Shown here one piece after another: positions 11,259 to 47,305 of a stretch of DNA of 47,455 bases. The notes below the pieces were generated by a model. That model saw nothing but the letters and a program-made list of their open reading frames with translations. It did no database searches and had not been told where the DNA came from. Both the position numbers and the translations under genes were made by a program. This stretch comes from an uncultured Paraprevotella sp. Its GTDB lineage: Bacteria > Bacteroidota > Bacteroidia > Bacteroidales > Bacteroidaceae. The stretch lies in the NCBI GenBank assembly GCA_944321565.1, contig CALULT010000019.1, positions 1-47,455 on the forward strand, written 5' to 3'. The stretch's first letter is position 1; each line of letters begins with the position of its first letter.

Positions 11259-11371
11259 AAGTTAGTACTACTGACATGGCCAAGTCAGTTATCTTACTTG
11301 CCCAAGTCAGTTATCTTACTTTGCCAAGTCAGTATATCTTCTTTTTGGGAAGTTAGTATCTTTTGGTAACT
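11259..11371 (+). repeat. Degenerate 22-24-bp tandem repeats (AAGTCAGTTATCTTACTT)
   Basis: Five imperfect units start at 11259, 11282, 11304, 11326 and 11350. The core, AAGTCAGTTATCTTACTT, is exact in units 2 and 3 and degenerate in the others. In the core units CAAGT and ACTTG can pair around a 10-nt loop. A related sequence, TATCTTACTTCACCAAGTAAGATA, lies at the 3' end of ogt (24908-24931). The rest of the gap 11182-11454 holds no gene that I can support. Confidence 0.65.
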
Positions 11372-11754: not shown

Positions 11755-11772
11755 CAGTCACAAAACGGAAAT

Positions 11773-11843
11773 GGTTCCCTGACCGAGTGGCTAGGTAACG
11801 GTCTGCAAAACCGTCTACAGCAGTTCGAATCTGCTGGGAACCT
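11773..11843 (+). tRNA. tRNA-Cys (GCA), copy 1
   Basis: A 71-nt cloverleaf. The acceptor arm is GGTTCCC/GGGAACC, the anticodon stem ACGGT/ACCGT with loop CTGCAAA (anticodon GCA), and the T-arm GCAG-TTCGAAT-CTGC. The discriminator base is T, the identity base of tRNA-Cys. CCA is not encoded. Confidence 0.97.
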
Positions 11844-11868
11844 CTTCCGCGATGATAAAGACAACAAT

Positions 11869-11939
11869 GGTTCCCTGACCGAGTGGCTAGGTAACGGTCT
11901 GCAAAACCGTCTACAGCAGTTCGAATCTGCTGGGAACCT
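11869..11939 (+). tRNA. tRNA-Cys (GCA), copy 2
   Basis: Identical in all 71 bases to the first copy and 25 nt downstream of it. The two are evidently processed from one transcript that ends at the hairpin at 11945-11986. A recent tandem duplication is likely, since the spacer is different from the flanks. Confidence 0.97.
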
Positions 11940-11944
11940 CTACG

Positions 11945-11986
11945 GCGGAAGGATGGCATCAAAACGGCAGCATCCTTCCGCTTTTT
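11945..11986 (+). terminator. Terminator of the tRNA-Cys transcript
   Basis: GCGGAAGGATG (11945-11955) pairs perfectly with CATCCTTCCGC (11971-11981), followed by TTTTT. The araC-type gene ends convergently at 11994, and the A-run is absent on its side, so it mainly serves the rightward transcript. Confidence 0.85.
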
Positions 11987-12988: not shown

Positions 12989-13021
12989 CCTATAATTTTA
13001 GGCCACGTTTTCCTACTTTTG
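12989..13021 (+). promoter_or_regulatory. Control region of the L-galactose operon
   Basis: A -7 box TACTTTTG lies at 13014-13021 with no TTTG at the right distance, as expected of a promoter that needs an activator. A near-perfect 14-bp palindrome CCTATAATTTTAGG (one mismatched pair) at 12989-13002 occupies the place of the missing -33 box. It is a candidate AraC-type or other operator; no direct repeats are obvious. Confidence 0.5.
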
Positions 13022-13062: not shown

Positions 13063-13995
13063 ATGCGGTATTCGTATTTAGGAAAAACCGGGTTGAAACT
13101 TCCGGTGCTAAGTTTCGGGGCATCCTCGCTGGGAGGCGTTTTCCATTCCATCCGTGAAGCGGACGGCATGCGGGCTGCGCTGACCGCAGTGGAAAACGGG
13201 ATGAACTTCATCGACGTGTCTCCCTATTACGGGCATTACAAAGCCGAAACCGTGCTGGGCAAGGTGTTGAAAGACCTGCCGCGCAGCTCTTTCATCTTGT
13301 CCACGAAAGTGGGACGTTACGGAAAAGACGGGGTAAACACGTGGGATTATTCCGCAAAAAAGGCGCAAGAAAGCGTGTATGAGAGCATGGAACGCCTGCA
13401 TGTGGACTACATCGACCTCATCAACGTGCACGACATAGAATTTGCCGACTTGCCGCAAGTGGCCAACGAAACCCTCCCGGCATTGGTGGAGCTGCGGGAA
13501 AAAGGCGTCGTGGGACACGTGGGCATCACCGACCTGCAGCTGGAAAACCTGCAATGGGTCATCGACCACGTGCCGGAAGGCACGGTGGAAAGCGTGCTCA
13601 ACTTCTGCCACTACACATTGAACGACGACAAACTGGCGGACTACCTGGACTATTTCGAAAGCAAAGGCATCGGCATCATCAACGCCTCGCCTTTCTCCAT
13701 GGGATTGCTGTCCGGGCGCGGGGCACCCGACTGGCATCCGGCTCCCGCCCCCTTGGCGGAAGCTTGCCGCAAGGCCGCCGAGTATTGCCAATCCCAAGGT
13801 TATCCCATTGAGAAGCTGGCCATCCAATACGCTGTCAGCGAGCCGCGCATCTGCACCACGCTGTTCAGTTCTGCCAACCCGGACAACGTACTGAAAAACC
13901 TGCGCTACATTGAAGAACCCATCGACTGGGAGCTGGTCAAGAAAGTAAAGGAGATCATCGGCGACCAGCAACGCGTGTCGTGGAAAAACACATAA
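13063..13995 (+). CDS. Aldo/keto reductase, probable L-galactose dehydrogenase
   Basis: A 310-residue cytoplasmic NAD(P)-dependent enzyme of the aldo/keto reductase superfamily. The catalytic tetrad is visible: D51 and Y56 in DVSPYYGHYKAE, K82 in STKVGRYG, and H123 in INVHDIEF. The order dehydrogenase, lactonase, Zn-alcohol dehydrogenase matches the L-galactose pathway worked out in Phocaeicola (Bacteroides) vulgatus (Bvu0219, Bvu0220, Bvu0222), in which this first enzyme oxidises L-galactose to the 1,5-lactone. The plant L-galactose dehydrogenase is of the same family. L-fucose is a plausible alternative substrate because it differs only at C6, but the downstream tagaturonate and altronate genes favour L-galactose. 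First gene of a six-gene operon; 18 nt separate it from the next gene. Confidence 0.88.
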   Translation: MRYSYLGKTGLKLPVLSFGASSLGGVFHSIREADGMRAALTAVENGMNFIDVSPYYGHYKAETVLGKVLKDLPRSSFILSTKVGRYGKDGVNTWDYSAKKAQESVYESMERLHVDYIDLINVHDIEFADLPQVANETLPALVELREKGVVGHVGITDLQLENLQWVIDHVPEGTVESVLNFCHYTLNDDKLADYLDYFESKGIGIINASPFSMGLLSGRGAPDWHPAPAPLAEACRKAAEYCQSQGYPIEKLAIQYAVSEPRICTTLFSSANPDNVLKNLRYIEEPIDWELVKKVKEIIGDQQRVSWKNT

Positions 13996-14013
13996 GAGGA
14001 AGGACGCCAACCA

Positions 14014-14937
14014 ATGGAATATACAATTATAGACGCACACTCCCATTTGTGGCTTTGGCAAGACACCGAAGTTGACGGGTTGCCCATCCGCACCCTTGAC
14101 GGCGGGCGGTCGCTCTTCATGGGCGAAATCCGGCAGATGGTTCCACCTTTCATGACAGATGGAAGAAACACCGCCGAGATTTTCCTCTCAAACATGAACT
14201 ATGCCCAAGTGGGCGCGGCCGTGGTGACACAGGAATATATCGACGGCATCCAGAATGACTACTTGAAACAAGTGCAGGAAAAATATCCCGGCCGGTTCCT
14301 GGTATGCGGTTTATGCGAATTTCGCCGTCCCGGCTTCCTCTCGCAGGCGCGTGAGCTTATCCGCGACGGCTTCCGCGCCATCAAGATTCCGGCCAACCGC
14401 CTGGATTTGCGTGAAGGGCGTGTGCCGCTCAACAGCGAGGAAATGATGGAGATGTTCCACCTCATGGAAGACCATCATATCATCTTGTCCATCGACATGC
14501 TGGAAGGCGACACCCAAACGGGCGAGATGAAAGAAGTCATTGCAGAGTGCCCGAAGCTGAAAATCGCCATCGGGCACTTCGGCATGGTCACGCGCCCTAA
14601 ATGGGAAGAACAAATCAAGTTGGCTTTGGCCGAAAACGTGTTCATCGAGTCGGGCGGCATCACGTGGCTGTTCAACGACGAATTTTATCCTTTCAAAGGC
14701 GCAGTGCGGGCCATCCGCGAAGCCGCCGGCCATGTGGGCATGCACAAACTGATGTGGGGCTCCGACTATCCGCGCACCATCACGGCCATCACCTACCGCA
14801 TGTCGTATGACTTCATCCTTAAGAGCGACGAACTCGCGGAAGAAGAAAAAGCCCTCTTCCTGGGCGAAAACGCCAAGACGTTCTACGGCTTCCACGATTT
14901 GCCCCGGTTGCCCTATATCAAAAACATGTCGGAATAA
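14014..14937 (+). CDS. Amidohydrolase, probable L-galactono-1,5-lactonase
   Basis: A 307-residue TIM-barrel hydrolase of the amidohydrolase superfamily, COG3618 group. The HxH pair after strand 1 is H9/H11 (IDAHSHLWLW). Other likely active-site residues are K124 (FRAIKIPANR), H188 (IAIGHFGM) and D251 (MWGSDYPRT). COG3618 includes characterised sugar lactonases (L-fuconolactonase, L-rhamnonolactonase, L-galactonolactonase). Here it would open L-galactono-1,5-lactone to L-galactonate between the dehydrogenases encoded on either side. Cytoplasmic; no signal peptide. The 29-nt gap to the next gene supports one transcript. Confidence 0.88.
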   Translation: MEYTIIDAHSHLWLWQDTEVDGLPIRTLDGGRSLFMGEIRQMVPPFMTDGRNTAEIFLSNMNYAQVGAAVVTQEYIDGIQNDYLKQVQEKYPGRFLVCGLCEFRRPGFLSQARELIRDGFRAIKIPANRLDLREGRVPLNSEEMMEMFHLMEDHHIILSIDMLEGDTQTGEMKEVIAECPKLKIAIGHFGMVTRPKWEEQIKLALAENVFIESGGITWLFNDEFYPFKGAVRAIREAAGHVGMHKLMWGSDYPRTITAITYRMSYDFILKSDELAEEEKALFLGENAKTFYGFHDLPRLPYIKNMSE

Positions 14938-14966
14938 ACATTAAAAGAAAAAAACAAAAACCAGAA

Positions 14967-15989
14967 ATGAAAGCATTACAGATAACATCCCCCCGCCATA
15001 CGACCCTGACGGAAATCGAAAAACCGACGTGTGCGGCCAATGAAGTGTTGCTGCGCATCAAATACGTGGGATTTTGCGGTTCAGACCTTAACACCTATCT
15101 CGGCAAAAACCCGATGGTCAAGCTTCCGGTCATCCCCGGGCACGAGGTCGGTGCCGTGATTGAAGCCACCGGGACGGACGTTCCGGCCAACCTGAAAGCC
15201 GGCATGAACGTCACGGTCAATCCTTACACCAGTTGCGGAAAATGCGCCTCCTGCCGAAACGGGCGCGTGAATGCCTGCGAGCACAACGAAACTTTCGGTG
15301 TGCAACGCAACGGCACAATGACAGAACTGGTGGCCGTTCCCTGGCAGAAAGTGATTGTAGCCGACGGGCTTTCCGCCCGCGACTGCGCACTGGTGGAACC
15401 GCTAAGCGTGGGATTCCATGCCGTGTCGCGCGCCGGGGTGACCGATACAGACACGGTCATGGTCATCGGGTGCGGCATGGTGGGGCTGGGAGCCATCGCG
15501 CGGTCTGCCATGCGCGGCGCACGGGTCATCGCAGTAGATATTGACAACGGGAAACTGAACGTGGCCCGCGCCATGGGGGCAACCTACACGCTCAACTCCC
15601 AAACGGAAAACGTCCATGCCGCCCTCCAGGATTACACAGGCGGTTTCGGCCCCGATGTGGTCATCGAAGCCGTAGGTTCTCCCGCCACTTACGTCACCGC
15701 TGTGGAAGAAGTCTCGTTCACTGGCCGTGTCGTATATATCGGCTATGCAAAAAGCGACGTGTCGTTCCAAACCAAGTTGTTCGTACAAAAGGAACTGGAC
15801 ATTCGCGGTTCACGAAACGCGCTACCCTCGGATTTCCGTGCGGCCATCCGTTTCCTGCAACAGGGAACATGCCCCATCGACGACCTCATCTCGGCCATTG
15901 CCCCGATTGAAGAAGGCGGAGACATGTTGGCCCAATGGGCGGAAGCACCGTCCAAGGTGTTCCGCATCTTGATAAAACTTGAAAAATAG
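14967..15989 (+). CDS. Zn alcohol dehydrogenase, probable L-galactonate 5-dehydrogenase
   Basis: A 340-residue medium-chain dehydrogenase. Catalytic zinc ligands are C37 (VGFCGSDLNTY), H59/E60 (PGHEVGAV) and E144 (LVEPLSVGFH). Structural zinc is held by C90, C93, C96 and C104 (CGKCASCRNGRVNAC). The NAD-binding GxGxxG motif is at VIGCGMVGLGAIA (about 167-179). The family includes E. coli LgoD (YjjN) and B. vulgatus Bvu0222, both of which oxidise L-galactonate to D-tagaturonate. The next gene uses D-tagaturonate, so the assignment is strongly supported by context. Related polyol or gulonate dehydrogenases cannot be excluded from sequence alone. Confidence 0.88.
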   Translation: MKALQITSPRHTTLTEIEKPTCAANEVLLRIKYVGFCGSDLNTYLGKNPMVKLPVIPGHEVGAVIEATGTDVPANLKAGMNVTVNPYTSCGKCASCRNGRVNACEHNETFGVQRNGTMTELVAVPWQKVIVADGLSARDCALVEPLSVGFHAVSRAGVTDTDTVMVIGCGMVGLGAIARSAMRGARVIAVDIDNGKLNVARAMGATYTLNSQTENVHAALQDYTGGFGPDVVIEAVGSPATYVTAVEEVSFTGRVVYIGYAKSDVSFQTKLFVQKELDIRGSRNALPSDFRAAIRFLQQGTCPIDDLISAIAPIEEGGDMLAQWAEAPSKVFRILIKLEK

Positions 15990-16018
15990 TATGGTTCATT
16001 CTTAAAAAAACGACAAAC

Positions 16019-17464
16019 ATGTTGCCATTGAACAGCAAGACAGCCCGCAAACCTGCAAGGCCGGAAAGAATCATCCAGTTCGGCGAAGGCAATTTCCTGC
16101 GCGCCTTTGCCGATTGGATTGTATCCATCATGAACGAACACGCCGGGTTCAACGGGAGTGTCGTGGTGGTCAAACCTACCCCCCGGGGCAATCTTGACGT
16201 GTTCCAACGTCAAGACTGCCTTTACCACGTGAACCTGCAAGGCATCGAAAAAGGACAAGCCAGGGATTCATACCGCCTCGTCGATGTCATCAGCCGTGCT
16301 GTCAACCCATACGTCCAATTCGACGAATACATGAAGCTGGCCGAACTCCCGGACGTGCGTTTCGTCATATCCAACACCACGGAAGCCGGCATCGTTTTCG
16401 ACCCGTCTTGCCGCTTCGAGGACAGGCCGGCTGTCTCTTATCCGGGAAAACTGACCCAATTGCTTTTTCACCGTTTCCAACATTTCCGCGGTGACAAGGA
16501 CAAGGGTGTCATCATCCTTCCCTGCGAACTGGTGTTCCAAAACGGGCACAGATTGAAAGAAGCCATCGAACAGTATATCGAATTGTGGCAGCTTGGCAAC
16601 GACTTCGACGAATGGTTCCACTCCGCATGCCGGATCTGCGCCACGCTCGTGGACCGCATCGTCCCCGGCTTCCCGGCCAAGACGATAGACAGCATCAAGG
16701 AAAAGCTGCAATACGATGACAACCTCGTCGTGCAAGGGGAAGTTTACCACCTGTGGGTCATTGAAGCCCCGGAAAGCGTGGCACGTGAATTTCCAGCCCA
16801 GGCATGCGGGCTGAACGTGCAGTTTGTGGCAGACGAAGCTCCCTACCACCAGCGCAAAGTGACGTTGCTCAACGGCCCCCACACCTTGCTTTCGCCCGTG
16901 GCCTATTTGTCGGGAATCGACATCGTGCGGGACGCATGCCAAGACGAAACGGTCGGTGCGTATGTCCGCAAGGTGATGTACGACGAACTTCTCGAAACCC
17001 TCGACCTGCCCAAAGGGGAATTACGGCAATTTGCAGACGATGTGCTGGAACGTTTTACCAACCCGTTTATCGACCACCAAGTCACGTCCATCATGTTGAA
17101 CGCATTCCCCAAATTTGCCACACGCGACCTTCCGGGCCTGAAAGAATACCTCAGGAGAAAAGGGAAGCTGCCCGCGGGCATCGTGTTTGGCCTGGCCGCC
17201 CTCATAACCTATTATAAAGGAGGCGACCGAGAGGACGGGAAACCCATCGCACCGAACGACGCACCGGGAATCATGCAGTTGCTCGCGGAAGCCTGGCAAT
17301 GCGGCAACGAACAGGAAGTGGCCGGAAAAGTATTGGGAAGCCGCATGCTGTGGCAAGAAGACCTGACCCGTATTCCGGGTTTGCAGGATTTACTGGCACT
17401 GTACCTGAAAGCCATCAGGCAATCGGGAATGAGGGCGGCGGTCAAACAAATGCTGAACCAATAA
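16019..17464 (+). CDS. uxaB: Tagaturonate reductase (altronate oxidoreductase)
   Basis: A 481-residue cytoplasmic enzyme of the long-chain mannitol dehydrogenase family that reduces D-tagaturonate to D-altronate with NADH. The cofactor loop is IIQFGEGNFLRAFADW (residues 18-33). The family signature K-x4-N-x2-H is K280, N285, H288 in RKVTLLNGPHTLLSP. The length and the C-terminal helical domain fit UxaB; mannonate oxidoreductase (UxuB) is the nearest alternative, but the neighbouring altronate dehydratase decides in favour of tagaturonate. In galacturonate users this step follows UxaC isomerase. Here no isomerase is present, and the substrate would be delivered instead by the L-galactonate dehydrogenase encoded upstream. 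Confidence 0.93.
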   Translation: MLPLNSKTARKPARPERIIQFGEGNFLRAFADWIVSIMNEHAGFNGSVVVVKPTPRGNLDVFQRQDCLYHVNLQGIEKGQARDSYRLVDVISRAVNPYVQFDEYMKLAELPDVRFVISNTTEAGIVFDPSCRFEDRPAVSYPGKLTQLLFHRFQHFRGDKDKGVIILPCELVFQNGHRLKEAIEQYIELWQLGNDFDEWFHSACRICATLVDRIVPGFPAKTIDSIKEKLQYDDNLVVQGEVYHLWVIEAPESVAREFPAQACGLNVQFVADEAPYHQRKVTLLNGPHTLLSPVAYLSGIDIVRDACQDETVGAYVRKVMYDELLETLDLPKGELRQFADDVLERFTNPFIDHQVTSIMLNAFPKFATRDLPGLKEYLRRKGKLPAGIVFGLAALITYYKGGDREDGKPIAPNDAPGIMQLLAEAWQCGNEQEVAGKVLGSRMLWQEDLTRIPGLQDLLALYLKAIRQSGMRAAVKQMLNQ

Positions 17465-17480
17465 AGCAGACGACAAAACC

Positions 17481-18965
17481 ATGAAATATATCCTCATCCA
17501 TCCGGACGACAACGTCGCGGTAGCATTGCAGCCGCTCCCAAAAGGTGAAGGCATCACCTGCGGCGGCCATGAAATCAGGATTTTGGAAGACATCCCGGCA
17601 GGACACAAGGTGGCGGTAAAGACTATCCTGCAAGGGGAAAATGTCATCAAATACGGCTTCCCTATCGGCCATGTCACACAAGAGGCAATGCCCGGGCAAT
17701 GGATAAATGAACATGTCCTGAAGACGAACCTGCAAGGCATCACGGACTACCGATACCAACCGGTTGCCATACCTGGCACAGATGCCGGCAAGCCGCACAC
17801 CTTCAAAGGATATGTGCGGAAGAATGACGATGTGGGCATACGCAACGAACTGTGGATTATTCCCACCGTGGGATGCGTCAACGGCGTGGCGCAGGAACTG
17901 GCCCGCAGGATGAACGAGGAAACCTGCGCCAAGGATATTGACGGCATCACGGCCTACACCCACAACTACGGCTGTTCACAATTGGGAGAAGACCACGAAA
18001 ACACGCGCCGCATCTTGCGCGACATGGCCTTGCACCCCAATGCAGGCGGTGTGCTCATCGTCGGGTTGGGATGCGAAAACAACCAGCCGGAAGATTTCAT
18101 GGCCTCGTTGGGTGATTATGACAAACAACGGATCCGCCTGTTGGTCTGCCAAAAAGAAGAAGACGAAATCGCGCGGGGAATGGAGATATTGCGGGATTTG
18201 CATGCCTCCATGGCTAACGACATACGTACGGACGTGCCTGCAAGCAAACTGAAAGTGGGACTGAAATGCGGGGGGTCGGACGGGCTGTCCGGCATCACGG
18301 CCAACCCGCTCCTGGGACGTTTCTCTGATTATCTCGTGGCACAAGGCGGAACCACCGTGCTCACCGAGGTGCCCGAAATGTTCGGGGCGGAAACACTCCT
18401 GATGAACCGGTGCAAGGACGAAGCCACTTTCCAAAAGACAGTTTCCCTCATCAACGATTTCAAGCAATATTTTCTTGAACACAAGCAACCTGTCTCTGAA
18501 AACCCGTCTCCGGGGAACAAAGCGGGAGGCATCTCCACGTTGGAAGAAAAATCGTTGGGGTGCGTTCAAAAGTCCGGCACGTCAGCCGTGTGCGACGTGC
18601 TGAAATACGGTGGCCGGCTTACGTCCTGCGGGCTGAACCTGCTCAGCGCACCGGGAAACGACCTTGTCGCCTCCACGGCATTGGCCGCCTCGGGCTGCCA
18701 CCTCGTGCTTTTCACCACCGGACGCGGCACACCCTTCGGCACATTTGTCCCCACCCTGAAAGTTTCGTCCAACACCACCCTGTTCAAAAAGAAACCGGAA
18801 TGGATTGATTTCAATGCCGGCACACTGGCCGAAGGGGAAAGCATGAACCGACTCCTTGCCCGCTTCACGGACTTTGTACTGGATGTGGCCAGCGGCAGGC
18901 AAACGCTCAACGAGCAACACGCCTACCACGAGATAGCCATCTTCAAATCGGGCATCACATTGTAA
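17481..18965 (+). CDS. uxaA: Altronate dehydratase
   Basis: A 494-residue cytoplasmic enzyme that converts D-altronate to 2-keto-3-deoxy-D-gluconate, a metal-dependent member of the UxaA/GarD family. The N-terminal SAF-type domain is at about 1-90 (ILIHPDDNVAVALQPLPKGE). The catalytic part has the family motifs GYVRKNDDVGIRNELWIIPTV, HNYGCSQLGEDHENTRRIL, LIVGLGCENNQPED and GLKCGGSDGLSGITANP, with conserved Cys and His for metal binding. The length matches full UxaA. No 2-keto-3-deoxygluconate kinase or aldolase is encoded in the window, so the last steps must be supplied from elsewhere, presumably shared with pectin galacturonate breakdown. Confidence 0.95.
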   Translation: MKYILIHPDDNVAVALQPLPKGEGITCGGHEIRILEDIPAGHKVAVKTILQGENVIKYGFPIGHVTQEAMPGQWINEHVLKTNLQGITDYRYQPVAIPGTDAGKPHTFKGYVRKNDDVGIRNELWIIPTVGCVNGVAQELARRMNEETCAKDIDGITAYTHNYGCSQLGEDHENTRRILRDMALHPNAGGVLIVGLGCENNQPEDFMASLGDYDKQRIRLLVCQKEEDEIARGMEILRDLHASMANDIRTDVPASKLKVGLKCGGSDGLSGITANPLLGRFSDYLVAQGGTTVLTEVPEMFGAETLLMNRCKDEATFQKTVSLINDFKQYFLEHKQPVSENPSPGNKAGGISTLEEKSLGCVQKSGTSAVCDVLKYGGRLTSCGLNLLSAPGNDLVASTALAASGCHLVLFTTGRGTPFGTFVPTLKVSSNTTLFKKKPEWIDFNAGTLAEGESMNRLLARFTDFVLDVASGRQTLNEQHAYHEIAIFKSGITL

Positions 18966-19010
18966 CTCAAAAAACCTTATATCTAAAACTAACCATATGT
19001 CTAACTTAAA

Positions 19011-21350
19011 ATGTTTAGTATGAAAAAGTTTACATTATTAGCGGTTTCACTGGCCACATGTATATGTAGCTGGGGAACACAAATCGAGAATGGGCATTCC
19101 GCCTATGCCAACGGAATGACACGGGACATCCTTGAGCTGGTTGAGGACGAAGTTCTCCCGGAAACCTCTCCCAAAGCGGAGAGCGGTGAACTCATCGAAA
19201 TTCCGCAGGATCAGGGTAAAGACTTAGATACTTTTACCCGGACGGAGTTCGAAGCCGGTGACGAGTACAACACTTACACCGCGAACGGCGATTTGCAGAT
19301 TGCCTTCAAGATGATGAATATCGATGTGAAGGGCTGCGATTACGTCGTGGTGAAATTTACAGAACCTGTGGCGGCAGGATGGCAACTGGCTTTTTGGGAA
19401 AACCAAGATCTGGTTCCCGTTCCGGAAGGAGCCACGGAATATAAATTCGAGCTTGAGCCGCAGATGCTCAGCAGCGGGGTACTTCCCCAAATCTGCATGA
19501 TGACGTTCTTTGGCGGCTATACGGCACCGCTCGTTGCTAAAGTGGAAGGGGTGTATAAACACATGGGTGAATCAGAACCGACCACTCCAACCAAAGTTGA
19601 AAAAGAAGTTTCCCTCAATGTAAATGGAGTGACACGGACGTACCTGTTGTATGTTCCGGAACAGGTTGCTGAAAATCCGGCTTTGGTGTTCTCTTTGCAT
19701 GGTGCTAGCGGTCATTCAACCGATCGTTCGCCGTTCAGGACTTCGGTAGCCGATGAAAAAGGTTGTATTGTGGTATATCCCCAAGGGGTAAATCAATATT
19801 TCCCTGTGTTTGGCGGTAGCGTAACCGGATGGAACGCCACAGGCGCGGCCAATGAAGACTTGGATTTCTTCAAGCAAATCATCGAAGACGTCGCAGCAGA
19901 CTATGCCATAGACCGTTCGCGCATCTATTGCTGTGGGTTCTCCAATGGCGGCATGATGACCTATTCCAACGCAAGTGCCGCTGCCGATATTTTCGCGGCC
20001 TTTGCATCCATCAGCGGTTTCCAGCTCAACGAGTTCCACCACCGCCCAACGGGTGCCCGCCCAGTTCCGTTCCTGCACATCCATGGTATGTCGGATGATT
20101 TCGTGAAATACTCTTGCATGCCAGTCATCCGCGACAATATGGTGGCTCGCAATGGTTGCAACCCGGTTCCTGAAGTTTCAGAAGTTGCCGGCAAATACCG
20201 TTGCAGCGTCTATGAAGCCGGCGAAGGCGGATTCCCATATATATATTATGAAATCGAAGGGATGGGGCACAACGACTACACCGACAAGACCCCAGAAGGC
20301 AATTCGGCATTGACGATGTGGAACTTCCTGAGCCAGTACACGCTTGAGGACGAATGCGACCCGACATTGAAATGGCGGCTCAATATCGACACGGAAGGAT
20401 TTGTTCCGACGGAACACTATTGGACGGTCAGCGCCGACAAGACACGCTTTACGTATGGCACCGCCAAGAAGGCCAACAACGCCGACAACAATGTGTATCC
20501 GTCCTTGCAGTTCGAGGCCGGAAACTACATGCTGACCTTCGAATCCACCGGAACAGAAGGGAACAAAATGTATATCCAGCTCGAAGCACTTGACGGCAGT
20601 TCCGTGCTTTTCTGCAAATCCGGAAAGGTCGGTGAAAAAGTCGTGATGCCTTTCTCCGTCGATGCTTATTCCGAATATAAGATTACCATCGTGAAGACTT
20701 CACCTGATGACAAGTTCACCTCTTTTGCCATCCATTCCTGCGCCGAACCTGCTTCTGCGGAAAACAGCGAGGATGACGTGCTTCCAGAGGATTCTCCTGA
20801 ACCTGAGGGCGGCTATCTCATCGAGATTCCGCAAGCCCAGGAAGAGTTGGAAGGTTTCTCCACAACGGGCTCCGAAGCCGGTGACGAGTACAACACTTAC
20901 ACCGCGACAGGCGATTTACAAATTGCCTTCAAGATGGTGGATATCGATGTGAAGGACTGCGATTACGTTGTGGTGAAATTTGCAGAGCCTGTAGCGGCAG
21001 GATGGAAAGTGGCATTTTGGGAAGGACAGACCCTGGTTGACGTTCCGGAAGGAGCCACGGAGTACAAGTTCGAGCTTGAGCCTCAGATGGTCAGCAGCGG
21101 GCTGCTTCCCCAAATCTGCATGATGACATTCTTTGGCGGCTATACGGCACCGCTCATTGCTAAAGTAGAAGGGGTATATAAGCATTGCACCCTTGAAGAC
21201 CCCACAGGCATAGAACGTGTAAGCAATGATAGCGAGGTAATCCCTGAGGCTTATTTTTCTCTTTCCGGCGCGAGACTTTCTTCTTTGCAAAAAGGAATCA
21301 ATATTGTCCGGACAAGTGATGGGCAAACGAAGAAAGTATTGATGAAATAA
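19011..21350 (+). CDS. Secreted CE1/PHB-depolymerase-like esterase with duplicated module and T9SS-like tail
   Basis: A 779-residue exported protein; the signal peptide is MKKFTLLAVSLATCICSWG (starts at 19011 and 19020 are both possible). Residues about 45-184 and 587-725 are two copies of one module (shared runs such as GDEYNTYTA, KFELEPQM, PQICMMTFFGGYTAPL), probably a carbohydrate-binding or adhesive beta-sandwich. Between them, residues 197-445 form an alpha/beta-hydrolase of the feruloyl/acetyl esterase and PHB-depolymerase-like group, with S311 in GFSNGG, D362 or D363 in HGMSDDFV and H420 in EGMGHNDY as the triad. Residues 450-580 are another beta-rich module. The C-terminus (IERVSNDSEV to KVLMK) is a sorting-like tail common in Bacteroidales secreted proteins. 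It is 45 nt after uxaA and before the operon terminator, so an ester-bearing, L-galactose-containing glycan is the likely target (inference). Confidence 0.88.
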   Translation: MFSMKKFTLLAVSLATCICSWGTQIENGHSAYANGMTRDILELVEDEVLPETSPKAESGELIEIPQDQGKDLDTFTRTEFEAGDEYNTYTANGDLQIAFKMMNIDVKGCDYVVVKFTEPVAAGWQLAFWENQDLVPVPEGATEYKFELEPQMLSSGVLPQICMMTFFGGYTAPLVAKVEGVYKHMGESEPTTPTKVEKEVSLNVNGVTRTYLLYVPEQVAENPALVFSLHGASGHSTDRSPFRTSVADEKGCIVVYPQGVNQYFPVFGGSVTGWNATGAANEDLDFFKQIIEDVAADYAIDRSRIYCCGFSNGGMMTYSNASAAADIFAAFASISGFQLNEFHHRPTGARPVPFLHIHGMSDDFVKYSCMPVIRDNMVARNGCNPVPEVSEVAGKYRCSVYEAGEGGFPYIYYEIEGMGHNDYTDKTPEGNSALTMWNFLSQYTLEDECDPTLKWRLNIDTEGFVPTEHYWTVSADKTRFTYGTAKKANNADNNVYPSLQFEAGNYMLTFESTGTEGNKMYIQLEALDGSSVLFCKSGKVGEKVVMPFSVDAYSEYKITIVKTSPDDKFTSFAIHSCAEPASAENSEDDVLPEDSPEPEGGYLIEIPQAQEELEGFSTTGSEAGDEYNTYTATGDLQIAFKMVDIDVKDCDYVVVKFAEPVAAGWKVAFWEGQTLVDVPEGATEYKFELEPQMVSSGLLPQICMMTFFGGYTAPLIAKVEGVYKHCTLEDPTGIERVSNDSEVIPEAYFSLSGARLSSLQKGINIVRTSDGQTKKVLMK

Positions 21351-21504: not shown

Positions 21505-22059
21505 ATGGAAAAGACAGACAACAGACAATGGGAAGTGTTGGAAAGCGAATACCTCATCCAAAGGCCGTGGCTGACGGCACGACGCGACAAGGTGAAACTG
21601 CCCAACGGAGTGGTCAACGACGAATACTACGTGTTGGAATATCCCGACTGGGTCAACGTGATTGCCATCACGGAAGACGGACGCTTCGTCATGGAACGGC
21701 AATACCGCCACGGGCTGCAATGGACCGGATATGAAATCTGCGCCGGTGTGTGTGAAGATGGGGAAACACCCTTGGAGTCCGCCCAAAGGGAACTGTGGGA
21801 AGAAACAGGGTTCGGCGGCGGCACATGGGAGTTGCAAATGACGATTGCCCCCAACGCCTCGGCCATGAACAACCTGTGCCACTGTTACATCGCGCGCGGT
21901 GTGCGGCAAATAGCCCCACCCCACCAGGAAGCCACGGAAGACATCAGCGTGTGCCTCCTGCCCGCCGAAGAAGTGCACCGGTTGCTGGCCAATGGAGGAA
22001 TCAAACAAGCGGCCATGCTAGCGCCGCTTTGGCGGTATTTTGCAGAAAACGGGATTTGA
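21505..22059 (+). CDS. Nudix hydrolase, ADP-ribose pyrophosphatase type
   Basis: A 184-residue cytoplasmic hydrolase. The Nudix box G-x5-E-x7-REUxEExGU is complete in GVCEDGETPLESAQRELWEE followed by TGF (residues about 81-103). An upstream beta-rich part (VMERQYRHGLQWTGYEICAG) resembles ADP-ribose pyrophosphatases such as NudF, which split ADP-ribose to AMP and ribose-5-phosphate; other nucleotide sugars are possible. A lone gene between the esterase terminator and the convergent Fur-family gene, with only 12 nt between the two stops and no consensus promoter that I can point to. Confidence 0.9.
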   Translation: MEKTDNRQWEVLESEYLIQRPWLTARRDKVKLPNGVVNDEYYVLEYPDWVNVIAITEDGRFVMERQYRHGLQWTGYEICAGVCEDGETPLESAQRELWEETGFGGGTWELQMTIAPNASAMNNLCHCYIARGVRQIAPPHQEATEDISVCLLPAEEVHRLLANGGIKQAAMLAPLWRYFAENGI

Positions 22060-33907: not shown

Positions 33908-34162
33908 ACAAACTCGTTTGTTTTTTATGCCGAGGTGAAGCCTATCTAAAAATAATACAAAACAGTGAGGCACTGAGCAAATCACGGGAATATGATTGAA
34001 AGTTAATGATTTACGATGTGCCAAGTTTCATTCTGCCTCAAGCGCAACACGCCGAAAAAGAACGGACAGATACCGGCCATGTGCCGTATTGCATTCGTCA
34101 AGAATCGCTATTTTCCAACGCGTTTTGGCCTAAGAGCTTGTTCAAAATTCCAAACGTCGAAA
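33908..34162. other. Intergenic stretch between nadC and the repeat array
   Basis: No coding sequence that I can support; it separates the nadC promoter from the hairpin array. Confidence 0.5.
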
Positions 34163-34377
34163 ATTTCAAAGCCTGAAACACCCAGTTTCAAGGCCTGAAA
34201 CACCCAGTTTCAAAGCCTGGAACACCCAGTTTCAAGGCCTGGAACACCCAGTTTCAAAGCCTGAAACACCCAGTTTCAAAGCCTGGAACACCCAGTTTCA
34301 AGGCCTGGAACACCTAGTTTCAAGGCCTGGAACACCCAGTTTCAAGGCCTGAAACACCCAGTTTCAAGGCCTGGAAC
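34163..34377 (+). repeat. Tandem 22-bp hairpin repeat array, 10 units
   Basis: Ten units begin at 34163 and every 22 nt after. Each is GTTTCA (ATTTCA in unit 1), a 5-nt loop (AGGCC or AAGCC), and TGAAAC or TGGAAC, joined by ACCCA or ACCTA. The 3' arm is TGAAAC in units 1, 2, 5 and 9 and TGGAAC in the other six; both pair with GTTTCA in plus-strand RNA, the second through a G-U wobble. On the minus strand the same changes would give C-A mismatches. Same family as 792-874. Confidence 0.9.
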
Positions 34378-34431
34378 ACCTAGACTGCAAAAGACTAAAG
34401 ATTACGCCGACCCAAACACACTTCCTGCGAG

Positions 34432-46806: not shown

Positions 46807-46993
46807 GTTGTTCGCCCAGCATGAACCTCGAATCAGTCTGGAAAGCCGGCTGCGGGAAACGAGGCAATAGTCTTATGCCGGAACAGCCCGCATTCTTGGG
46901 GATTTAACACCATCTAGAAAAACGAATTGAGTAATACAGAGTTCCTGCTTTTACAAACTTCAGAATGTCGGCAGTCAAAGCCGCCAGGAATGA
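46807..46993. other. Intergenic start of the repeat-rich right end
   Basis: No gene; contains one copy of the GGGGATTTAACA motif (46894-46909). Further right, 46994-47455 also lacks any coding sequence that I can support. Confidence 0.55.
46894..46909 (-). repeat. Dispersed motif TGTTAAATCCCCAAGA, inverted copy
   Basis: On the minus strand this is TGTTAAATCCCCAAGA, identical over 16 nt to 47307-47322, so the two copies are inverted repeats that bracket the MITE-like element. Confidence 0.7.
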
Positions 46994-46999
46994 ACTGTC

Positions 47000-47237
47000 C
47001 CGCCTTGCAGGGGGACGAGCCCCGAAGGGGCGGAGGGGGTCTCACACCCACGGGGCGTAACGCCCCTTCTGTTCGCCGTGCGGCGGCCATAATGCCCTTT
47101 TGTTTCCCTCGCGGCGGCCATAATGGCCGTTTTGTTCGCCATGCGGAGGGGCGTAACGACCCTTTTGTTTCCCTCGCGGAATGATACGTGGGCGGGAAAC
47201 CCCTCCGGCTCTTCGAGCCACCTCCCCTGCAAGGCGG
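47000..47237. mobile_element. MITE-like extragenic element
   Basis: A 238-bp GC-rich block bounded by the perfect 14-bp inverted repeats CCGCCTTGCAGGGG (47000-47013) and CCCCTGCAAGGCGG (47224-47237). Subterminal GGGGCGGAGGGGGT and ACCCCTCCGGCTCTTCGAG stretches resemble the palindromic ends of extragenic repeats known in many bacteria. The centre (47071-47199) carries four 31-33-bp units that alternate between GTTCGCC(G/A)TGCGG and GTTTCCCTCGCGG. No transposase gene is present, so it would move only in trans, if at all. Confidence 0.6.
47071..47199 (+). repeat. Alternating 31-33-bp repeats inside the MITE-like element
   Basis: Units start at 47071, 47102, 47134 and 47167. Units 1 and 3 begin GTTCGCC, units 2 and 4 begin GTTTCCCTCGCGG; the CATAATG or CGTAACG core recurs in units 1-3, so the repeat is in effect a 63-65-bp two-part unit. 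The cores GGCCATAATGGCC and GGGGCGTAACGCCCC are palindromic. Confidence 0.65.
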
Positions 47238-47305
47238 AGGAGTTTTTCTCCGCACGGGCAAGTGACGGGAAGCAGGGCACTTGATTACAAATGAATATTC
47301 GTCAG

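Follow-up and report, generated by a model that had tools for sequence, protein, structure and literature searches.

A Paraprevotella L-galactose operon whose lower half probably also serves galacturonate breakdown, and its possible link to cereal xylan

We analysed a 47,455-nucleotide (nt) stretch of DNA from an uncultured Paraprevotella sp., the whole of which is here called the window, and in it a run of five enzyme genes and one esterase gene at 13,063 to 21,350. We consider it moderately probable that this run is an L-galactose operon whose lower half is common with galacturonate use, and that it is fed mainly by the glucuronoarabinoxylan of cereals and grasses. The operon is real and its function can be assigned, and operons of its kind are known; what is new is the proposed shared trunk and the proposed link to xylan. 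Enzyme activity, cotranscription and the substrate of the esterase are inferred. The source genome (G000) measures 3.04 Mb in 105 contigs and is 99.4% complete; its contig C19 is the window. L, G and C numbers stand for fetched relative loci, genomes and contigs of G000, respectively.

Results

An operon leading from L-galactose to 2-keto-3-deoxygluconate (KDG) under its own AraC-type regulator, as proposed in an earlier note on this DNA, was supported by the gene content (Table 1) and by the PDB matches of the first enzyme, an aldo/keto reductase (AKR). In the PDB search with the AKR, the five top-ranking sequences are all named L-galactose dehydrogenase (266–564 bits), with the next AKR at 87 bits, and the match to 7lh6, deposited as an L-galactose dehydrogenase, extends across residues 1–309 (E = 8.1e-169). 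The tetrad that the note had read in this protein (D51, Y56, K82 and H123) is present. Given this strong homology, L-galactose is a well supported prediction for the AKR substrate. Neither the predicted lactonase (presumably of COG3618 type, as the note had it) nor the predicted Zn-dependent dehydrogenase had a close solved relative in the PDB search, the nearest to the dehydrogenase being RspB (135.6 bits). Their roles are assigned from the conserved neighbourhood and the pathway of Phocaeicola vulgatus, and the exact substrate of the dehydrogenase is read from context.

Relatives were gathered by a search with the lactonase, from which the best 80 of 404 loci were fetched, and counts therefore lean toward near kin. 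The nearest among the named loci was L003, from an uncultured Paraprevotella metagenome-assembled genome (MAG), with a lactonase 99% identical. A lactonase homolog adjoins an AKR homolog in most of the 80, and homologs of the AKR, lactonase and dehydrogenase genes (akr, lac and adh) lie in one fetched stretch on the same strand in 72, so the grouping exceeds chance. A homolog of one FucP-like permease (L009 as reference) was found in 44 loci, in most of them between lac and adh and otherwise next to the operon. The permease is not in the window's run; G000 encodes two homologs at other places, with 34% and 29% identity, and one of them, on contig C42, scores as FucP at 636 bits.

The five-gene form, with UxaB and UxaA added to the three upper enzymes, occurs in 16 of the 80 loci, and Bacteroidales records with it carry the names Paraprevotella, Phocaeicola, Bacteroides, Parabacteroides and Alistipes. 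Galactarate dehydratase was rejected as an identity for UxaA (TIGR03248, 317.8 bits, far under the cut-off of 730.85). The UxaB (PF01232), UxaA (PF04295) and UxaC families are each matched once in G000, a count from which an unclosed assembly could hide a copy, and the sole UxaB and UxaA matches sit inside the L-galactose operon. UxaC is encoded on contig C50, together with an MFS gene, UxuA and an SDR D-mannonate oxidoreductase; this run looks like a full glucuronate branch, and uxaB and uxaA are not in it. Because the only UxaB and UxaA matches of the genome lie in the operon and UxaC lies elsewhere, the operon probably also forms the lower half of galacturonate use. The note had held that the operon avoids the UxaC isomerase. 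That is true of the L-galactose branch only, since the operon's UxaB and UxaA, the sole matches in the genome, probably take part in galacturonate use as well.

Genome-level counts were made from 29 of the 80 loci, 28 of which fall in 27 genomes (L041 lies outside). UxaA had a single match in 26 of the 27 and three in G005; 15 carried the five-gene operon, with UxaA single in 14 of these. UxaC was found in 25, and the two misses, G002 and G012, are the genomes of MAG loci with five-gene operons. In a UxaB tree of 39 rows, the 18 operon-linked rows fell nearly together (2 label changes v 13 in shuffles), a pattern that kinship alone could explain.

The gene behind uxaA encodes a probable feruloyl esterase. 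The first three of its seven PDB matches are the feruloyl esterases 8jh8, 8iy8 and 9j07, and it carries the motifs GFSNGG (at 309), HGMSDD (at 358) and GMGHND (at 417). Its fold model was unusable (pLDDT 35). Its export, as the note had proposed, is suggested by an N-terminal hydrophobic stretch judged by eye. Two copies of a module flank the catalytic domain, 83% identical in DNA across 419 bases and 77% in protein across 147 aa. Further open frames, in G058 and in G061, carry this module too, and the C-terminal tail is common to other proteins of many related genomes and recurs at G000:C2:34529-34696.

One basis for the link to xylan is the genome's only enzyme of glycoside hydrolase (GH) family 95, which matches the Bacteroides ovatus structure 4UFC over its full length (1295.7 bits, residues 8–806). 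When given corn xylan, the protein of that structure, BACOVA_03438, released L-galactose exclusively; its Thr370, replaced by His in a fucosidase, contacts O6 of L-galactose (PMC4491172). At this position the G000 enzyme has Thr (YTININ) and FucOB has His (YHNNIN). The GH95 gene lies in a 40-kb stretch of contig C2 together with a hybrid two-component regulator (HTCS), five GH43 genes, CBM6, esterases, GH97, GH115, GH2 and GH127. Two esterases homologous to the operon esterase (35% identical) stand directly before GH95, and the two best PDB matches of the nearer one are feruloyl esterases. Of 30 fetched GH95 loci, 13 have a homologous esterase directly upstream of GH95 in the same orientation and 17 do not; counted by genome, this amounts to 8 of the 10 distinct same-genus genomes in the set. 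G061, of the same family, has a 1913-aa open frame (L120:287-6028) in which GH95 occupies the N-terminal side and is followed by an esterase domain (47% identical), and in G058 esterases, GH115 and GH95 lie within one contig stretch.

We also compared GH95 presence (at least 55% identity over at least 700 residues) between the 27 operon genomes and 45 others, after excluding the own genome, six duplicates and G035 from 80 genomes. GH95 was above the cut-off in 18 of 27 operon genomes v 4 of 45 others, among genomes that are related, with the operon status of the 45 unestablished and the threshold chosen afterwards.

Published structures offer a substrate that would join these enzymes. The side chain alpha-L-Gal-(1->2)-beta-D-Xyl-(1->2)-5-O-feruloyl-L-Ara was present in 12 of 12 cereals screened, and maize side chains are also capped with alpha-D-Gal or alpha-D-Xyl (PMC4712305). 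GH95 has been used with GH31, and with a feruloyl esterase, on corn-fibre oligosaccharides (PMC7176698, PMC8165983). A single substrate bearing both ferulate and L-galactose would explain why esterase and GH95 are neighbours. Feruloylated cereal or grass arabinoxylan fits better than rhamnogalacturonan-II (RG-II) or algal galactan, because of the feruloyl esterase matches, the sole 4UFC-like GH95, the GH43/GH97/GH115 locus and the GH95–esterase fusion. An extracellular esterase step on an esterified L-galactose glycan, as the note had suggested, is plausible, although the RG-II, mucilage and algal galactan that it named suit the data less well than feruloylated arabinoxylan.

Several observations weigh against this link. 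The seven PDB matches of the operon esterase also include an acetylxylan esterase and a polyhydroxybutyrate (PHB)-depolymerase-type esterase, and it missed the curated esterase model NF050058 (134.7 bits v a cut-off of 150). When we looked for it beside the same enzymes in other genomes, 1 of the 80 fetched loci had it next to the operon as the window does, namely the near-identical L003 (and again in G044, probably the same genome as L003). Its closest other relative, in G033 (77% identical), is on a different contig from that genome's operon. This rules out the esterase as a conserved operon member, and with so few loci its position is by itself weak evidence. Promoter and terminator scans inform neither way on its cotranscription. 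The Thr at the Thr370 position does not discriminate, being found in 31 of 31 GH95 loci examined, and so supports the assignment without proving it. The same-genus genomes G028 and G042 have GH95 and no esterase match, and 9 of the 27 operon genomes have no GH95 above the cut-off, so other L-galactose sources must exist. GH95 also serves RG-II breakdown, as in BT1010.

It is conceivable, if not what we favour, that this is an ordinary L-galactose operon behind whose uxaA an unrelated esterase, with its own substrate and regulation, was inserted by chance. Its presence beside the operon is near species-specific, and in Paraprevotella clara and P. xylaniphila (L005 and L006) a homolog of the gene at 21505-22059 (NUDIX, by eye) follows uxaA with no esterase between. 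However, the esterase is on the same strand, 45 nt behind uxaA as the note had measured, and the two-box promoter pattern is not matched between them; in 8 distinct genomes a homologous esterase immediately precedes GH95, and in one genome the two form a fusion; and other relatives carry other polysaccharide enzymes in the same run. A supply of L-galactose from chain A of RG-II, one of the glycans that the note had named, with the esterase removing pectin acetyl or methyl groups, seems unlikely to us. Chain A is attacked by the GH95 enzyme BT1010, and a UxaB/UxaA pair common with galacturonate would suit a pectin eater; against this, the genome's only GH95 is 4UFC-like and lies within a GH43/GH115 locus (a search for other RG-II enzymes was not made), and the three nearest solved esterases are feruloyl esterases. 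We think it very improbable that the primary role is in D-galacturonate use with the L-galactose enzymes as passengers or acting on L-fucose or D-arabinose, since, for all that UxaB and UxaA are sole matches and GH29 (a fucosidase family) runs with the operon in 9 of 80 loci, the top PDB matches of the AKR are L-galactose dehydrogenases and Luteolibacter LguA was inactive on both of those sugars (PMC12632266).

The polysaccharide enzymes beside the operon vary between relatives. We counted genes on the same strand with gaps below 200 nt, using simple calling of open reading frames (ORFs). As a raw count, at least one GH homolog runs with the operon in 22 of the 80 loci; by family the counts were GH29 9, GH97 7, GH31 5, GH2 2, GH3 2, GH127 1 and GH95 1. 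A GDSL esterase runs with it in 3. Accessory ORFs of at least 480 aa numbered 71, of which 29 were Pfam-scanned: 19 had a GH domain, one was a GDSL esterase and nine were neither (two DPP-IV peptidases, CotH, TPR, a TonB receptor, SusD, one CARDB and two without family). In P. xylaniphila a GH2 gene (L006:11969-14587) is inserted between the dehydrogenase gene and uxaB, and its product is 56% identical to the GH2 of the xylan locus of G000. GH31 and GH97 would suit the capping sugars, yet they occur in other systems also.

A secreted-looking family of about 540 aa lies beside the operon in 11 of the 80 loci, in nine of them within the run (Table 1). Two members were Pfam-scanned, one having no family and the other a CARDB domain; no NCBIfam family was found for two members, and a PDB profile search gave nothing of worth. 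The fold model was poor (pLDDT 53), and Foldseek matches, which included several GH43 enzymes and levanases, had TM-scores of 0.1–0.3 and count little. At most they hint at a propeller hydrolase, and the family may be a candidate new L-galactosidase.

The layout of the run agreed with the note. All operon ORFs are where it had placed them, and the gaps among the five enzyme genes fall within its 16–29 nt (akr–lac 18, lac–adh 29, adh–uxaB 29 and uxaB–uxaA 16 nt). The protein families were likewise confirmed (Aldo_ket_red, Amidohydro_2, ADH_N/ADH_zinc_N, Mannitol_dh, GD_AH and alpha/beta-hydrolase), as was the divergent AraC-type gene upstream. That the run lacks a transporter, kinase or aldolase is correct for the run and not for the whole genome: a KDG-kinase-like PfkB gene and the 2-keto-3-deoxy-6-phosphogluconate (KDPG) aldolase gene eda, the genome's only aldolase match, are neighbours on contig C48. 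The single terminator was not recovered, as the scan gave no terminator-like site between the esterase stop at 21350 and the next gene at 21505; such sites are no commoner in the whole region than chance (13 v a shuffle mean of 15.3). The two-box promoter pattern was matched at six sites in the window, all of them outside the operon.

The regulator gene is listed with a TTG start, and internal ATGs are possible. Homologs 73–88% identical are adjacent and divergent in L003–L006. An 82-base direct repeat (97.6% identical) lies behind this gene at 11770-11851 and 11866-11947, and a 22-base tandem repeat at 11279-11344. Dispersed repeats at 34159-34383, 792-877 and 46898-47245 also occur in stretches of contigs C2, C42 and C48.

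Table 1. Features of the operon region in the window, and members of the ~540-aa family in relative loci
Feature	Coordinates	Strand	Evidence
AraC-type regulator, cupin sensor domain and AraC helix-turn-helix	11994..12908	-	Pfam HTH_AraC/HTH_18/Cupin_2
Putative -7 box TACTTTTG	13014..13021	+	Weak; fits the Bacteroidales -7 consensus TANNTTTG; full two-box pattern unmatched
Predicted L-galactose 1-dehydrogenase (AKR)	13063..13995	+	Top five PDB matches
Predicted L-galactono-lactonase, presumed COG3618-type amidohydrolase	14014..14937	+	Amidohydro_2 E 3.2e-33; HSH motif at residue 9
Predicted Zn-dependent L-galactonate 5-dehydrogenase, to D-tagaturonate	14967..15989	+	ADH_N/ADH_zinc_N; GHE and CGKCASC motifs
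UxaB, tagaturonate reductase	16019..17464	+	NCBIfam NF002969 626.4 bits, cut-off 359
UxaA, altronate dehydratase	17481..18965	+	GD_AH_second/GD_AH_C
Secreted-type esterase, probable feruloyl esterase	19011..21350	+	PDB 8jh8 feruloyl esterase E 5.2e-21
Module copy A, before catalytic domain	19143..19561	+	Unnamed in Pfam at threshold used
Module copy B, behind catalytic domain, then C-terminal tail	20769..21184	+	Repeat comparison with copy A
~540-aa family members in the run	L008:13288-14904, L045:13257-14873, L047:11982-13631, L048:11998-13650, L049:10129-11778		
~540-aa family members in the run, continued	L059:7334-8971, L062:5510-7162, L066:12243-13895, L070:3844-5460		

Discussion

We propose the following route. 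The C2 xylan locus would trim the polymer, GH97 would take a capping hexose and GH95 would then release alpha-L-galactose, while feruloyl esterases, the operon's included, would remove ferulate from the 5-O-feruloyl-L-Ara side chain; this step is suggested by the enzyme families, their neighbours and the published side-chain structure. L-galactose would enter through a FucP-type permease encoded elsewhere. The AKR, lactonase and Zn-dehydrogenase would then convert it to D-tagaturonate, and UxaB and UxaA would carry this to KDG, steps for which homology is strong. KDG kinase and eda, encoded elsewhere, would complete the breakdown. From copy number, D-galacturonate arriving via UxaC would use the same UxaB and UxaA. 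As a guess, the AraC regulator might sense an early sugar or lactone. The esterase would be a recent addition, which has so far turned up only in this species group.

The P. vulgatus genes for L-galactose use are reportedly BVU_0219, BVU_0220 and BVU_0222, attributed to Hobbs in 2014. The window likewise has the AKR, lactonase and Zn-dehydrogenase in one run, in the order that those locus numbers imply; it differs in that UxaB and UxaA come straight after them and in the additional esterase. The window also differs in having no FucP-like permease, which is typical of its relatives (44 of 80) and not established as defining P. vulgatus-type clusters. The P. vulgatus pathway to D-tagaturonate is cited in a 2025 account of Luteolibacter LG18, in which enzyme assays and mutants demonstrated the role of the lguR/lguABCDEF cluster in L-galactose and L-glucose use, the mutants growing poorly on L-galactose (PMC12632266). 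The two clusters share a divergent regulator or activator, an AKR, altronate dehydratase, tagaturonate reductase and L-galactonate dehydrogenase. The lgu cluster differs in having aldolase and fructokinase genes and another gene order, and no lactonase or esterase is named in the sections drawn on here; the window's operon is without the lgu-type KDPG aldolase. The joining of both pathway halves, which the note had inferred, is not new, being present in 16 of 80 loci and in the lgu cluster, and a categorically new pathway is ruled out on the same grounds. The authors of that account reported that they did not find an organism carrying their whole set of orthologs minus only the C-4 epimerase LguG; in function, the five-gene operons look like counterparts of a set of this kind, one for L-galactose alone.

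The C2 locus has GH95, GH97, GH43 and GH115, as in the xylan loci described for B. ovatus, including PUL-XylL with BACOVA_03438 (PMC4491172). Unlike PUL-XylL, it has two esterases before GH95, and it is not linked to catabolic genes; GH31 and GH98 were not among the C2 proteins scanned. A full-text literature search gave, among the matches listed (titles and abstract openings, most subscription papers being outside its scope), none tying an L-galactose operon to GH95 or a feruloyl esterase, and no account of which gut bacteria or genes finish the L-galactose of cereal xylan.

More tentatively, the operon may be, across Bacteroidales, the cytoplasmic end of a system for those grass arabinoxylan side chains that carry both L-galactose and ferulate, and may include a variable slot in which different secreted enzymes for this one side chain are taken up. 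The slot would hold a feruloyl esterase here and GH2, GH31, GH97, GH29/GH95 or a GDSL esterase elsewhere; GH31 and GH97 would take off the capping sugars, alpha-xylose in FAXGX and alpha-galactose in FAXGG, and the ~540-aa family may release L-galactose.

Galacturonate use would depend on genes of the L-galactose operon not only here but, judging from copy number, also in 14 of the 15 five-gene genomes examined, which matters when pectin use is predicted from genomes. The preferred reading would connect a catabolic operon of known type with recalcitrant side chains of a dietary fibre, cereal bran, and it names candidate enzymes for them.

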